From positions 1-64,000 of the forward strand of contig JAHYJE010000014.1 of the NCBI GenBank assembly GCA_019429105.1: DNA of 64,000 nt, written 5' to 3'. The DNA comes from Syntrophobacterales bacterium (lineage in GTDB: Bacteria > Desulfobacterota > Syntrophia > Syntrophales > UBA5619). The notes beneath the pieces are model-generated. The model had not been told where the DNA came from. It worked only from the letters and a program-made list of their open reading frames with translations, and did no database searches. Positions within the stretch are counted from its first letter, which is position 1; each line of letters opens with the position of its first letter. Shown here piece by piece: positions 25,694 to 43,310 of this stretch. A program made the translations under genes and the position numbers.

Positions 25694-25714
25694 ATGTTGC
25701 GCAATCGGCTCATT

Positions 25715-25798
25715 TCCCTACGCAGGCATTACCCTGATCAGGTCGGTAAAGGGTCGCCAAAAATTCGGCATCTCAGTCCCCTAAAGGACACCCCTAAC
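25715..25798 (-). ncRNA. TPP riboswitch (THI element)
   Basis: On the minus strand the conserved TPP aptamer blocks appear in order: GGGGTGTCC, GGACTGAGAT, ACCCTTTACC, GACCTGATCAGGGTAATG and CCTGCGTAGGGAA. These match the THI box consensus. It controls the thiC-thiW-ecfAA-ecfT transcript, with a terminator immediately downstream. Confidence 0.95.
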
Positions 25799-25837
25799 GA
25801 GCGGTTTGATTATGCGGTACAGATTTTCGATTGTCAA

Positions 25838-30069: not shown

Positions 30070-30876
30070 TTATGCCTTTGGTTTTACGGCCTCAATCGTC
30101 GCCGAAACCACATATTCCTCGACCTTGCTTCCCGGCGCCCACTCGCGGATAAAGGTTCTGCTTTCATCCTTCGGCCTGATCCGGATGTCCTCAAAACCAG
30201 TTCGCTTCAGCATGGTTTCGAGTTCGGGGATGAAAGATGCGCCCGCTATGCAGCCGGCGTACATGGCCATATCTTTCTTCACGGCGTCGGGCATCTCGGC
30301 GGTGGCAACAACATCGGAAATTGCCAGCCGTCCACCCGCCTTCAACACGCGGAAAGCCCCGCTGAATACCTTTTCTTTTTCGGGAGAAAGATTGACCACG
30401 CAGTTCGAAATGACGACGTCAACAATCCCGTCTGCAACCGGAAGGTTTTCCAGCTCTCCCAGACGAAAATCGACATTCCCGAACCCGACTTTCTCCGCAT
30501 TCAGGCGGGCCTTGGTGATCATCTCCGGCGTCATGTCAACGCCAATAACATGTCCGCTGTCTCCAACGGCCCGCGCCGCGAGGAAACAATCGAACCCTCC
30601 GCCGCTGCCCAAATCGAGCACCGTTTCGCCGGGCTGCAAAGAGGCAATCGCCTGTGGATTGCCGCACCCAAGCCCCATATTCGCCCCCTCCGGAACAGCC
30701 GTCACATCCCCGCCGGAGTAACCCAGGCCGATTGAAATTTCCGCTGCCGATACATCGTTTGCCGCTCCGCAACACGATGAGGCAGAACAACAGCCTACTG
30801 CGTCCCCTGCTAAAGCAATCTTTCCGTAATTTTCCCGAACCGCGCTGCGAATCTCTTCATTATCTTGCTTCTCCAT
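30070..30876 (-). CDS. arsM: Arsenite methyltransferase ArsM
   Basis: A SAM-dependent methyltransferase that methylates As(III). The N-terminus has the Cys-rich GCCSASSCCG, the SAM site is VLDLGSGGGFDCFLAAR, and family cysteines occur in ISNCVVNLSP and MYAGCIAGA, giving the expected arsenic-binding set. ATG 30876 has AGGAGGAGATT upstream; the frame extends to 30906 without support. It follows sigZ on the same strand, 85 bp downstream, suggesting one unit. Confidence 0.92.
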   Translation of the reverse strand: MEKQDNEEIRSAVRENYGKIALAGDAVGCCSASSCCGAANDVSAAEISIGLGYSGGDVTAVPEGANMGLGCGNPQAIASLQPGETVLDLGSGGGFDCFLAARAVGDSGHVIGVDMTPEMITKARLNAEKVGFGNVDFRLGELENLPVADGIVDVVISNCVVNLSPEKEKVFSGAFRVLKAGGRLAISDVVATAEMPDAVKKDMAMYAGCIAGASFIPELETMLKRTGFEDIRIRPKDESRTFIREWAPGSKVEEYVVSATIEAVKPKA

Positions 30877-30961
30877 GTCAATCTCCTCCTTAGGATTTAT
30901 GAGCATTGCTCACCCTAAAGACGGAAAAAGCCCGAAAAAGACGCACGCCCGCGTTCACTGG

Positions 30962-31513
30962 TCAACAAACATTACAGGCCTTGTTTTTTCGTTCATAATC
31001 ACTGAGCCGCCCTTTGTGATCGAACTCGAGTCGGCAGCAGTCGGCCAGCATTTCTTTGAGCAAGGCGCGTCCGCGTTGTACGCGGGATTTGGCGCCGGAA
31101 AGCGATGTGCCTTGCATCTGTGCGATTTCCTTATGCTTCAATCCTTTTAATTCCGATAGAATGACTGCTTCCCGATATATTTCGGGCAGTAATTGGATCA
31201 TGGGCCGCAAACATTCCGCCAACTCTTGAGTGGTCCTTTCGCCGGAATCAGGTTCGGGATGCGCAAACCACTCAGGAATATCTTCGGTGGGCCTTTGCAA
31301 ACGATAATAATCGACGATGGCGTTTCTTGCAATCTGGTAGAGCCAGCCTTGCAGCTTTGTCGCGTCCTGCAAAGAGTCCAATCCTGCATGCATTTTCAGA
31401 AATACGTCCTGCAGAACGTCATCCGCCGCCGTGTCGTCGGACATTTTGTTTTTAATAAAGGCGCGCAGCCTTGAATGATATTCCTTCCACACTTTTTCCG
31501 ATTTTTCCATCAC
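30962..31513 (-). CDS. sigZ: RNA polymerase sigma factor, SigZ-like (ECF type)
   Basis: A 183-residue ECF sigma factor. Region 2 includes DDVLQDVFLKMH and QGWLYQIARNAIVDYYR. Region 4 includes LPEIYREAVILSELKG and HKEIAQMQGTSLSGAKSRVQRGR. The C-terminus is SigZ-like, with CC near residue 160 and a terminal CNVC, so it may sense metal or redox state without a separate anti-sigma factor. arsM lies directly downstream. Confidence 0.85.
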   Translation of the reverse strand: MMEKSEKVWKEYHSRLRAFIKNKMSDDTAADDVLQDVFLKMHAGLDSLQDATKLQGWLYQIARNAIVDYYRLQRPTEDIPEWFAHPEPDSGERTTQELAECLRPMIQLLPEIYREAVILSELKGLKHKEIAQMQGTSLSGAKSRVQRGRALLKEMLADCCRLEFDHKGRLSDYERKNKACNVC

Positions 31514-31635: not shown

Positions 31636-32301
31636 TCATCCTTTTTTCAACATGTGCTCGAAATATCGTTTCACGGCAATCCATGCATCATCGGCCAGGG
31701 GTTCGAAACGGCCGCTTTTTGCCGAAAACATGTTCACATTCAAATCCCTTTCCGCATCGTCGAAGTAGAGCAGGCTCTTCTTCAGTTGAAAAAGCATCTC
31801 TTCTCCGACCGAGTATTTCCGGCGGATGTCACGCATGAGAGCATCCATGGTCAGGCCGGTCTTTTCCATAATGCATTTCAGATCTATAAAATCCTTGCAC
31901 GCGCCGCGCTGATTGATGGCGATGAGTTTCATAAGCGCCAGATCGCGGAGGGATGCCAGCAAAACAGGCAGGGCAGTATCCGCCCCCGGTTCTTCGATGA
32001 GGGGATAGGGATAGGTAAAAATACTGAATCCCGTGCTGTTCATGTTTGCAACCAGCGTATTCTTCTCGATTTTTACGGCAGAGAGTCTGAAAATACCCGA
32101 AAACGCCTTTTGCAGTTCATGAAACCATTGCAAACTGTCCATGTCTTGGAGGGTAAAAAAGTCAAAATCCACGGACAGTCGGTGGCCAAGATGAAGAGCC
32201 ACGGCGGTGCCGCCCGCCAGATAGGTTTGTGGCGGAAGTTCCCTAATGACCGGGTTTTTCAGAATGGTTGCCATGTCCGCTGTGATGCATCGGAAAAACA
32301 T
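31636..32301 (-). CDS. AbiEii-type nucleotidyltransferase (toxin component)
   Basis: A 221-residue protein with the nucleotidyltransferase signature LAGGTAVALHLGHRLSVDFDF (Gly-Gly at 30-31, Asp45 and Asp47) and a KDFIDL motif in the middle. It belongs to the AbiEii/AbiGii family, whose members modify tRNA or act in abortive infection. The start may be ATG 32274. It overlaps the DUF6922-like partner by 16-43 bp, the usual layout of this toxin-antitoxin type. Confidence 0.85.
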   Translation of the reverse strand: MFFRCITADMATILKNPVIRELPPQTYLAGGTAVALHLGHRLSVDFDFFTLQDMDSLQWFHELQKAFSGIFRLSAVKIEKNTLVANMNSTGFSIFTYPYPLIEEPGADTALPVLLASLRDLALMKLIAINQRGACKDFIDLKCIMEKTGLTMDALMRDIRRKYSVGEEMLFQLKKSLLYFDDAERDLNVNMFSAKSGRFEPLADDAWIAVKRYFEHMLKKG

Positions 32302-32663
32302 CGTGCAGCCTCCCGGGGGATATCAAATAACAAGCAAAAATAGTTGACGGTTTTTGGACTCAGATTCCGACTGGTGCATACAACCTCCCGGACGAATTCC
32401 TCGCCGAAGCGGGAGACAACCTCCCGGGCTTCACGCTCCGTTCCAAACTCAAGAATCCTTTCGACGATGACGAATCTGTCTTTCTCGGGATCCAAGGCAG
32501 CTTTATCCCAGAAAAGCTCTTTACGGAAAGCAAGCACTTCCTGAAGAAAACCGTTCATTCGATAACCTGTCTCAATCAATGATCCATCACGCAGTGTACG
32601 CCCCCGCAGATCACGGGACGTTTTCGTGCCTTCAACTGTATAAAATCCGGAAATATTTGTCAA
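32259..32663 (-). CDS. DUF6922-like partner of the AbiEii-type protein
   Basis: An ORF of up to 134 residues containing ELFWDKAALDPEKDRFVIVERILEFG (in parts) and CTSRNLSPKTVNYFCLLFDIP. This layout (FWD ... ID ... IIERVLE.G ... SR.LS.KT..FW) is that of DUF6922 proteins found in front of AbiEii-like genes and is the probable antitoxin. The first 36 residues look atypical; ATG 32555 is the more likely start. Confidence 0.7.
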   Translation of the reverse strand: MTNISGFYTVEGTKTSRDLRGRTLRDGSLIETGYRMNGFLQEVLAFRKELFWDKAALDPEKDRFVIVERILEFGTEREAREVVSRFGEEFVREVVCTSRNLSPKTVNYFCLLFDIPREAARCFSDASQRTWQPF

Positions 32664-33239: not shown

Positions 33240-33392
33240 TCACATCGTCAATTCGCAGAAAATCCGAACATCCTGATTCACATTATCGAAAAAGCCTTTG
33301 ATATCGGCCTCCACGATGTGGTTGATCGGCTTGTCCTCCACCGGCTCCCCGCTTCCGTGAACGGCCAATGTTTCCTCACAACGCGCTGACAT
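33240..33392 (-). pseudogene. Group II intron reverse transcriptase fragment
   Basis: A 50-codon frame containing INHIVEADIKGFFDNVNQDV, which matches the RT-2/RT-3 region of bacterial intron reverse transcriptases, then stopping 1 bp before domain V. Everything from the YADD catalytic block through the maturase domain is gone. An ATG with AGGAAAGGAAG upstream starts the frame but probably by chance. Confidence 0.8.
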
Positions 33393-33465
33393 GTGTAGCT
33401 TCCTTTCCTCCCGCTCGATTACGCGACCTTGCCCGGCCGCACTAAAGAAATGACCCCCAAAAAAG

Positions 33466-34698
33466 CTAATTGGTGAATCTGTGGAGCTGATTTCTGGGAA
33501 TGAGCAATAACGAGCCCAGGATTTTTAGCCCCTTATCTTCACACAAAAGGGCACGGTCGCGCATCTTCCCAAGAACCCTGGAAGCCGCTGTTTCACCCCA
33601 GAACCAATTTGCCAGGGCGTCGGGACTGGTAGGGCCTCCGGGCTGTGCCGACAAGGCCTCGGTGTAATAGGCCTTGAGGTCTTCACTGGCAAGCTTCATA
33701 GTAATATCGACAGGCATGCTGCTAACCGGGCTTTCGGGCATATCCCCTTTTATAAAGACCGAAAATAATTCCACTATTTCTTTCAGGGAGAGATTTGACG
33801 TGCCGGTGGTAGTCCGCCCTCTTTTTTTTAACCCTATATCAAACCAGTTTTGCAATCCTTCCGCCTCTTCTCGAAAATCCGCCAACAGTTTACCGATATC
33901 GTCAATTTCTTCGCCTTGCCCAGTTTGAGCGCGAAAGCTTACGGGGCACGCGGTGGGCGTGAACTCATTTTCCGAAACGGGCGCATCCTCTAAAAAATCC
34001 TCGATGATTGGGCGCCCGGATTTTTCAAGCAAACTCAGCGCGGCCAGCAAGACCTTTTTTTGGAACTCAGGCTCATCCGGCGCTCCCAGCGGCCTGCCGA
34101 AATCGAAAGGCACCCAAAGAGCCCGCGGCGGATTTATACGTTCTGTGTGGTCGCGAACCAAGCTTATTTGGGTGGTGGGAACTCCTTCGCTTTCTATGTA
34201 ATGACTAAGCCCGCCCACGGCGCGCGTGCAGTTTGGTCAGACCGGTACAAGCAGAACTGCATCAACCCCCTCGGCTTTCATTATATGGGCAAGCTCTCTG
34301 GCCCGCTTTTCCATGGCTGTCGGGTCTGTTGCCCCCATAAAGGAGTAATGGTACTGGGCGACGCTGCCTATTTCACCTGCTTCGACAAGTTCCTTCAGGC
34401 GCTGGAGCGGAAAAACGATATTGATATCCTGCTGGTAGCCGGTGCGATCGAAATTGCTGGAGACGTGGCTCATCACGATCTCCGATGAGGGTGTGTCGAA
34501 GGCAATAATCCGATAATCGTTAGCTCCAACTCCAAAGGGGAGGTCATTTCTTCTCTGAAGACCGGCGGTGGAGAGAATGGCCACTCTTCGTTCATTTAGC
34601 GGAGGGCCCTTAACCAGGGGAGTCTCTTTATAATCGGGGCAGCGAAGCGCCAACAAATGCTCTCTCTCGTAAGATGGCAAACGATCCAATCGTGTCAT
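33466..34698 (-). CDS. GrdB-like selenoprotein (glycine/sarcosine/betaine reductase B family), Sec at in-frame TGA
   Basis: Two adjacent minus-strand frames are one gene joined by TGA 34237-34239. Read as selenocysteine, this gives 410 residues with a U-P-N-C redox motif (Sec154, Cys157) inside VDAVLLVPV-U-PNCTRAVGG. Flanking sequence is typical of GRDB family proteins (AHIMKAEGVD, ISLVRDHTERINPPRALWVPF, RPLGAP). A hairpin at 34204-34232, about 5 bases after the TGA, fits a bacterial SECIS. The start ATG 34698 has AAAAAGGAGAAAG upstream. Family members are reductases that work through a Sec thiol; the substrate here is unknown. It stands alone, without grd partner genes nearby. Confidence 0.85.
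34204..34232 (-). promoter_or_regulatory. Putative bacterial SECIS hairpin
   Basis: In the mRNA sense, ACU/AGU, GC/GC, CGC/GCG and CG/UG pair around a CCG loop with two purine mismatches, starting 5 nt after the UGA. Position and size match SelB-recruiting elements; it was folded by eye only. Confidence 0.5.
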
Positions 34699-34767
34699 TC
34701 CGTCTTTCTCCTTTTTCTGTAACCAAACGTGCGAGTTGAGCGCCCATATAAATCTTTTTAACCCCAA

Positions 34768-37377: not shown

Positions 37378-37806
37378 TTATCGCATCAATCCTGCAAGCG
37401 GAAGCATAAAGCCGGCTTGCGTCTCGTTGAGATTCAATAGTCGCGATAAAAGCAATGGTCCCATATCGGATACTGTTGCCCGCACCTGGTGCCCGGATTC
37501 GCCGAAAACATCCCAGAACACGGATGTGTTGGCGCGCGGTTTAAATTCTTTAATGCCGATTGATTCCAAACGCTTGAGGATTTTCTCGGAGGCACTGCCC
37601 GCTGCGCCGATGCCGGCGAGGTCACCCTTGACGTCCGCCATAAAGACCGGGACGCCGATGGAGGCAAAAGACTCGGCCATCTTTTGCAGCGTGACAGTTT
37701 TACCCGTGCCGGTGGCGCCGGTAATGAGCCCGTGCCGGTTGGACATGCCCGGCAGCAGGGCAATTTCTTTGCCCTGCGACATTGCAATAATTAAAGGTTC
37801 GTTCAT
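37378..37806 (-). pseudogene. Truncated HerA-like ATPase (DUF853)
   Basis: The 142 residues match the start of DUF853 HerA-type ATPases: [20 protein letters not shown] (P-loop 30-37), [15 protein letters not shown] and SVFWDVFGE...[15 protein letters not shown]. The normal protein is about 500 residues. Here it stops just after NETQAG with no continuation downstream, so Walker B and the C-terminal part are lost. A decent ribosome-binding site (GGGAG) is retained. It ends 137 bp from the CRISPR array. Confidence 0.8.
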
Positions 37807-37942
37807 AAAAACTCCCTCGTGCAGTATTGTTTATCCAGCTTTTTATAAACCCTTTGGCCAAGCCTGGTGAGGCTATAAGAAGAAGCCGCATAGAAGTCAA
37901 CGGGGAACAACTTTCGTTAATGAGACCGGCCGGTCACCGCAG

Positions 37943-40606
<2,664 letters not shown>

Positions 40607-40789
40607 TCACTTTCCATAACACTTCGATACCATTAATACTTCACTTACTGTTTCGCGAACCTGTGCAAAAAAAGTTGTTGTATTCAATTGTCAAAGAGCC
40701 TATCTCATAATAGCTTATAGAATCGATTGCTTGCAGATAGCGCGAACTCCCCGGAGAAATAGTAACCGCTTGGGGTTCGCACCCGTCTT
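40607..40789 (-). promoter_or_regulatory. CRISPR leader
   Basis: An AT-rich 183-bp stretch between cas2 and the first (newest) repeat. On the minus strand it contains GCGAACCCCAAGCGG, a motif common in I-C leaders, in an imperfect inverted repeat with GGGGAGTTCGC at 40742-40780. A second GCGAAC-like site lies near 40651. It should hold the array promoter and the adaptation site. Confidence 0.75.
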
Positions 40790-42263: not shown

Positions 42264-43310
42264 CTAATTTTCTCGCTTGTTCCATTTTGCGTTCCTGCCA
42301 CGGCCAAGACATTCAATAGCCCCTTGAATCTGAAGGTCTTTAAGAACCCTGCGTATCATATCAATGCCGACGCCAGGACATTCTCTTTGCAGGTCAGCGA
42401 CACTGAAATTGCCGCTAAAACTCTCAACCGCCTTGTGAATTATTGTCGTTTTCTCACCCTTTGGCTGCGGAGATCCACTCAATCTGTTTTCGAATTCTTC
42501 ATAAGCCTTTTTAATTACGAAACAAACAAAATTTATATAATGCCACGGGTTATGCCTGCCTTCGTGCCATCCCTCCGAACTCATTTTCAATGTTTCATAA
42601 TATCGTTCCTTGTTCTGTTCGATGAGACGTTCGAGGCTTATAAACCGCCCGACCTCCATTCCGAGATGATAGCACATCAGAAGCATCAGCAACCTTGAGA
42701 CCCTTCCATTTCCGTCGCGGAATGGGTGTATGCACAGAAAATCGAGATTGAATGCCGCCATTGTCACCAGGGGAGGAATTTTCGTATCGCGCAGACATTC
42801 CTGCCACGAGGCTATCAGTTCATTCATGGACGATGCGGTTTTCACAGCCGGAACGGTTCGGAACCTTATACTGGAAGTACCGTCATGGCGTGTTTCTATA
42901 ATGTCGCTGTCTTTTTCCTTGTATTTGCCGGCATCCCATATTTCTCCCCGCATCTGAGAGTGAAGTTTCTTGCAGGTATCTTCCGTGAGGGGCAAGGTTA
43001 ACGCTGAATCATGTATAAGTTTGAGCGCCTCACGATAGCCGCGCACTTCTTCCTCGGAACGGTCTTGAAGTAGGGATTTTCCAAACAGAATCGTACCGAT
43101 GCGCTTCGTATCAACTTCAACGCCTTCAATACGATTGGATGAAACAGCGCTTTCAATAAGGGCATGTTCTTTAAGGGATTTCAGCCTCTGCGGCGACTGC
43201 TTTTTATAAAGTTCCTGTCTGCCCTTCGCCTCGCTTATATCGGCCAGATACCACGATGTCGATACCGGGATTGTGTCGAGACTCGATATGAACAATTTTA
43301 GAGTCATCAT
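42264..43310 (-). CDS. Fic-domain protein with N-terminal inhibitory motif, inside the cas operon
   Basis: A 348-residue protein. The Fic active site HPFRDGNGR (195-203, His195) is intact and should transfer AMP or a similar group. An inhibitory-helix motif SSNRIEG (57-63, Glu62) suggests class II autoinhibition. An N-terminal Fic_N-like region precedes it, and a C-terminal winged helix (about 285-348) may bind DNA. It lies between cas4 (98 bp) and cas1 (97 bp), on the same strand, with AGGAG upstream. It is not a known cas component. It could be a passenger or a toxin-like guard of the locus. Confidence 0.92.
   Translation of the reverse strand: MMTLKLFISSLDTIPVSTSWYLADISEAKGRQELYKKQSPQRLKSLKEHALIESAVSSNRIEGVEVDTKRIGTILFGKSLLQDRSEEEVRGYREALKLIHDSALTLPLTEDTCKKLHSQMRGEIWDAGKYKEKDSDIIETRHDGTSSIRFRTVPAVKTASSMNELIASWQECLRDTKIPPLVTMAAFNLDFLCIHPFRDGNGRVSRLLMLLMCYHLGMEVGRFISLERLIEQNKERYYETLKMSSEGWHEGRHNPWHYINFVCFVIKKAYEEFENRLSGSPQPKGEKTTIIHKAVESFSGNFSVADLQRECPGVGIDMIRRVLKDLQIQGAIECLGRGRNAKWNKREN

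Follow-up and report, generated by a model that had tools for sequence, protein, structure and literature searches.

Of the marine families, PrdB-like UxxC selenoproteins are one of the most abundant (PMC1088965; PMC2398784), with 235 Sec and 110 Cys members counted in the second of these studies, and are also listed for Anaeromyxobacter and Geobacter (PMC1794560). Proteins of this type from marine bacteria and Deltaproteobacteria have carried the name 'proline reductase' in reports from 2005-2008 onwards (PMC1088965, PMC1794560, PMC2398784). A 2026 review includes GrdB and D-proline reductase (PMC13188914), the searched passages of which do not mention a long or arsenic-linked form, and no open-access paper was found that links a GrdB-like protein to an ArsS arsenosugar island.

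The gene analysed here (33466-34698, minus strand; 410 codons and a stop) is located on a 64,000-nucleotide stretch of DNA (the window) from a Syntrophobacterales bacterium. The preliminary description of this locus had suggested an unstudied branch of Sec reductases, which is only in part the case: PrdB-type UxxC selenoproteins are already known, the distinct part being a clade of long, two-domain proteins (here named long forms, as opposed to the short, single-domain forms). Also absent from that description were the second domain and the setting of another subclade in arsenic islands, as were two more genes of this genome: on contig C41 a second, truncated long-form copy, and on contig C6 a short-form Sec paralogue.

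Reading frame and selenocysteine codon

Reading of the minus strand gives a single frame which starts with an ATG (34698-34696), located 9 nt behind a probable ribosome-binding site AAGGAG (34708-34713, minus), continues through an in-frame TGA (34239-34237) and ends with a stop codon (33468-33466). When the TGA is read as selenocysteine, a protein of 410 residues is obtained in which U154 is part of a V-U-P-N-C motif, with Cys157 (34228-34230, minus) as its putative resolving partner. Translation with table 11 yields two ORFs (34237-34767 and 33466-34218), as had been foreseen for an automatic caller, and annotation as two broken genes means that the family is under-counted.

The same codon is TGA in all seven full-length homologues, which share 46-81% identity and originate from Desulfobacterium, Geobacter, Desulfuromonadaceae, Nitrospinota, a betaproteobacterium and one unclassified source. 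An alignment at position 154, proposed in the preliminary description, was performed on 98 family sequences and contains Sec or Cys in 97 of them: codon 154 (34237-34239, minus) corresponds to TGA in 82, to TGC or TGT in 15 (all of these being short forms from the Pseudomonadota search) and to GGA in one, while the long forms have TGA in 24 out of 24 cases. Among 395 genomes of the same phylum, nearly every profile match contains exactly one TGA, and across 34 aligned proteins Sec154 and Cys157 are invariant, Cys replacing Sec only in the Pseudomonadota forms. Bona fide PrdB has TGA at the same column (in the prdA-prdB operons of Ligilactobacillus and Enterococcus, and in Acetoanaerobium), in agreement with the previous assignment of a UxxC redox motif with Sec at the family position. 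The GGA codon (Gly) belongs to a short-form homologue (L048, G359:C12:67351-68001), where it may reflect either a T-to-G change of UGA or a sequencing error.

Comparison with the two 81%-identical genes revealed zero indels. For one of these comparisons (L004, spanning 1230 nt), differences at codon positions 1/2/3 amount to 18/13/42 before the TGA and 38/16/102 after it, the dominance of third positions being indicative of a codon constraint that persists downstream of the TGA. The earlier proposal, according to which two adjacent minus-strand frames constitute one 410-residue protein with Sec at the TGA, agrees with both the TGA conservation (24 of 24 long forms, with Cys in other homologues) and the constraint on either side. 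It is virtually certain, as judged from these comparisons, that TGA 34239-34237 is a selenocysteine codon and that the gene product is one 410-residue selenoprotein.

The genome encodes selA, selB, selD and tRNA-Sec (selC; anticodon tca), i.e. the complete set of sel genes for which a search had been suggested, and its own selD (contig C38) contains an in-frame TGA. A TGA is furthermore present close to the end of the ArsS gene of this genome (C41:3831-4718, L089; ...AGAGFT-TGA-GG...), and this codon probably specifies Sec too.

A SECIS-type hairpin (34209-34225, minus), composed of a GCGCGC/GCGGGC stem with one G.G mismatch and a CGUGG loop, is located 15-31 nt 3' of the UGA, positions +15 to +20 being paired with +26 to +31 at a fixed spacing. 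RNA folding of this hairpin, as previously advised, returned an energy no better than that of shuffled sequences (z -0.20, single sequence); such single-sequence SECIS energy is uninformative, and covariation was therefore used. Across 68 non-redundant Sec sequences taken at fixed spacing, the stem is paired in 90.5% of cells and covariation reaches 0.279, versus a maximum of 0.075 in shuffles and at most 0.042 at slid positions. The main source of this signal is the short forms, and in the 19 long forms alone covariation is weaker (0.045, versus at most 0.013 when slid). Cys homologues have no hairpin at that position. The SECIS-like hairpin that had been described right after the TGA is thus supported by family covariation, but not by folding energy alone.

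Domain architecture and family placement

An AlphaFold model, generated from the 34-sequence alignment (pLDDT 89.4, pTM 0.88), comprises an N-terminal alpha/beta domain (residues 1-240; 33979-34698, minus) that is homologous to PrdB, a linker of low confidence (243-263) and a C-terminal all-helical domain (residues 268-410; 33469-33897, minus) which is found in long forms only. In this model Sec154 is positioned immediately ahead of a helix (155-170). When the C-terminal domain was folded separately, with one sequence as input, pLDDT was only 36. The helical domain has no credible Pfam match, searches of PDB sequences returned nothing credible, and a Foldseek comparison of the whole model with the PDB returned nothing at E up to 0.001. 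The best-ranked structures of this comparison, photocobilins, were set aside with a TM of about 0.2. Our guess is that specificity for a substrate or a partner probably depends on the helical domain.

With regard to family profiles, the gathering score of Pfam GRDB (PF07355) was passed (35.9 bits, cut-off 22) by a match that covers only the Sec-proximal part of the profile (272-345 of 347). The top NCBIfam model was PrdB (TIGR04483), which matched residues 27-226 at 106.6 bits without reaching its cut-off of 300, and the two GrdB models also remained under their cut-offs (TIGR01917, 47 versus 602 bits; TIGR01918, a broad GrdB-type model, 53 versus 65.45 bits). By these scores the protein is nearer to PrdB than to GrdB, yet it is neither, and its former designation as GrdB-like is not retained.

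In quick trees the long forms group as a single clade (SH-aLRT 97-98), to which neither PrdB (100) nor the short forms, whether Sec or Cys, belong, and the window gene clusters with two Desulfobacterium genes (support 100); on this basis, the long two-domain clade represents a distinct and well-supported branch. The long form was found in none of the 40 relatives searched, short forms occurring in several genomes of the same family, and the long-form gene was likely acquired horizontally. Viral contigs contain no relatives of the protein.

The same genome carries a short-form Sec paralogue (C6:13695-14324, L002; approximately 292 aa) with a U-P-V-C motif and a well-formed hairpin, relatives of which are present in the same family of genomes.

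Genomic neighbourhood and arsenic context

Several other features are present in the window. On the minus strand these are a TPP riboswitch (25698-25805; RF00059, 63.9 bits), an AbiEii-type nucleotidyltransferase gene with an upstream DUF6922 gene (31636-32663), the two being a possible type IV toxin-antitoxin pair, and, at about 33240-33400, a short peptide that resembles a fragment of a group II intron reverse transcriptase (VEADIKGFFDNV) and has no Pfam match. A CRISPR array of about 41 repeats (GTTTCAATCCACGCCCCCGCGCGGGGGGCGAC; 37938-40640) is accompanied by cas1, cas7 and csd1 genes, with a Fic/DOC gene (42264-43310) between cas1 and cas7, and adjoins an apparently truncated HerA-like helicase gene (37378-37806; about 131 of 502 profile positions).

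An arsenite methyltransferase gene (ArsM; 30070-30906, minus; NF008823, 371.6 bits, cut-off 263), whose functional link to the selenoprotein is only putative, is located downstream of the selenoprotein gene with a gap of 2.6 kb. This neighbourhood may be a coincidence; ArsM was discarded as a shared neighbour of long forms, since no long-form locus other than that of the window matched it. Directly upstream of arsM is a SigZ-type sigma factor gene (30962-31513, minus).

The neighbours of long forms mostly vary between genomes, the exception being one subclade (G358, G005, G254, G101, G047 and G368; support 96 in the tree), to which a frame-disrupted copy in G331 and the C41 remnant of the present genome were assigned outside the tree, by sequence resemblance and neighbours. 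Within this subclade, the G254 gene is 161 bp from ArsS and adjoins an ArsS-associated peroxidase-like gene, with TIGR04282 and TIGR04283 matches near; the G101 gene has ACR3 and ArsG nearby; the G331 copy is about 10 kb from TIGR04282/TIGR04283 matches; and in the vicinity of the G358 gene are a MerA-like reductase and a glucokinase, both resembling genes of the C41 island. In the L010 genome the distance to ArsS is about 16 kb.

The C41 remnant is a truncated second long-form copy corresponding to the first 50 codons (G000:C41:5254-5403, L089, minus), which lies 518 bp from ArsS inside an arsenosugar-type island (ArsS, TIGR04169, TIGR04282 and TIGR04283). It runs into a stretch of which the second frame resembles the tail of the excisionase-type HTH located after the long-form gene in G254, G047 and G368. 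ArsS being on C41, the window copy (on C14) lies outside the ArsS cluster, whereas the remnant on C41 and the gene of G254 each lie inside such a cluster. Moreover, the genomes of the two nearest relatives of the window gene lack ArsS, and the subclade of the window gene shows no arsenic island.

When counted strictly, arsenic markers occur at 4 of the 8 loci of the exceptional subclade versus none of the 17 other long loci (Fisher test, p 0.006), or versus 1/17 if the window ArsM is included (p 0.02), and versus 2 of 40 short-form loci (p 0.005), although loci were grouped after the pattern had been seen and the flanks are unequal. All long loci taken together are not enriched relative to short forms (4/25 versus 2/40, p 0.19). 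Because of the post hoc grouping, the unequal flanks and this lack of overall enrichment, the arsenic association of one long-form subclade is suggestive only. At the level of whole genomes, co-occurrence with ArsS is higher for short forms (54/76, versus 10/16 for long forms), a comparison confounded by selenium use and lineage.

A role as an arsenical enzyme, performing selenol redox or cleavage in arsenosugar or organoarsenical metabolism, would be in keeping with the proximity of ArsS to the G254 gene, the C41 remnant and the L010 gene, with the G101 and G331 neighbourhoods, with the ArsM gene of the window and with the marker counts of the subclade. It is considered unlikely for the window protein, given the post hoc grouping, the absence of arsenic context from its own subclade and of ArsS from the genomes of its nearest relatives, and the stronger (if confounded) co-occurrence of ArsS with short forms. 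Equally doubtful is the broader proposal that the long-form clade consists of partner-free selenium enzymes of which at least one subclade performs a redox or cleavage step on arsenosugars or organoarsenicals, the helical domain binding the substrate or a partner. The ArsS-island subclade nevertheless provides a testable candidate for an unassigned redox step of bacterial organoarsenical metabolism.

Proposed function and comparison with known systems

The preliminary description had called the gene solitary, and a profile search for PF09338 (the pyruvoyl-type component-B family, of PrdA/GrdE type) extends this observation: no match was obtained in this genome, the positive controls (G296 and G256) being matched. 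PF09338 is missing from 14 of the 19 long-form genomes, i.e. from this one and 13 of the 18 others, and present in five. The corresponding part of the claim that concerns GrdA is less firm, as GrdA had no match in the genome and none in the control genomes of that search either. Because PF09338 is absent and its controls matched, it is improbable that the protein serves this organism as an ordinary Grd/Prd subunit, although partners could be too diverged for detection or could be shared from another complex.

The protein is most likely a UxxC selenol redox enzyme. SelB and tRNA-Sec almost certainly decode UGA codon 154 as Sec, aided by the hairpin just downstream. In the alignment and the model, the N-terminal PrdB-like domain carries the UxxC pair, Sec154 and Cys157, where a helix begins. 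The Sec154 selenolate is then envisaged to attack the electrophilic centre of a small substrate, upon which Cys157 would resolve the adduct to a selenenylsulfide, and a thioredoxin or a flavoprotein disulfide reductase (MerA/Lpd-like) would restore the reduced state. This sequence of selenolate attack, resolution by Cys157 and re-reduction is put forward with moderate confidence. Classical Schiff-base amino-acid reductase action would not be expected, because a pyruvoyl component-B subunit is lacking. Taken as a whole, a Sec protein with a UxxC redox pair and an added helical domain, acting without a pyruvoyl partner, is likely to be the best explanation; if it is true, a Sec domain with PrdB-type selenol chemistry has been reused for other chemistry.

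That the protein functions as a GrdB or PrdB, namely as the Sec subunit of a reductase acting on glycine, betaine, sarcosine or D-proline, and has a partner that is hidden or distant, is improbable: the Pfam GRDB score, the PrdB homology across residues 27-226 and the PF09338 proteins of five long-form genomes would fit such a role, but every GrdB and PrdB model stays below its cut-off, PF09338 is absent here and from most long-form genomes, and the long-form clade has an extra domain and is separate from PrdB. Termination of standard translation at the TGA is what a true stop would produce, but a stop, a sequencing error or a pseudogene mutation is extremely improbable, the latter two having been rejected on the TGA conservation in long homologues (with Cys in others) plus the constraint across both sides.

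The partner-free UxxC selenoprotein thus favoured can be set against four described systems. With PrdB (TIGR04483), the Sec subunit of D-proline reductase, it shares a homologous domain, the Sec column and UxxC; PrdB, however, measures about 240 aa, is encoded in prdA operons and needs PrdA, whereas the window protein measures 410 aa, scores far under the PrdB cut-off (106.6 of 300 bits) and is without a PrdA-type partner. With GrdB of glycine/sarcosine/betaine reductase (PF07355, TIGR01917/01918) it has the Pfam family and the Sec position in common, but it matches only the Sec-proximal part of the profile, falls below the cut-offs and is without a GrdE-type partner. ArsS arsenosugar islands (TIGR04167, TIGR04169, TIGR04282, TIGR04283) form the neighbourhood of one long-form subclade and not of the window copy. 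Short solitary PrdB/GrdB-like selenoproteins, frequently called proline reductase or 'selenoprotein B family protein' (PMC1088965, PMC2398784, PMC1794560) and represented in this genome by the C6 paralogue, resemble the window protein in their UxxC and in having Sec with Cys homologues, but they end without the helical domain and are not part of the long clade.
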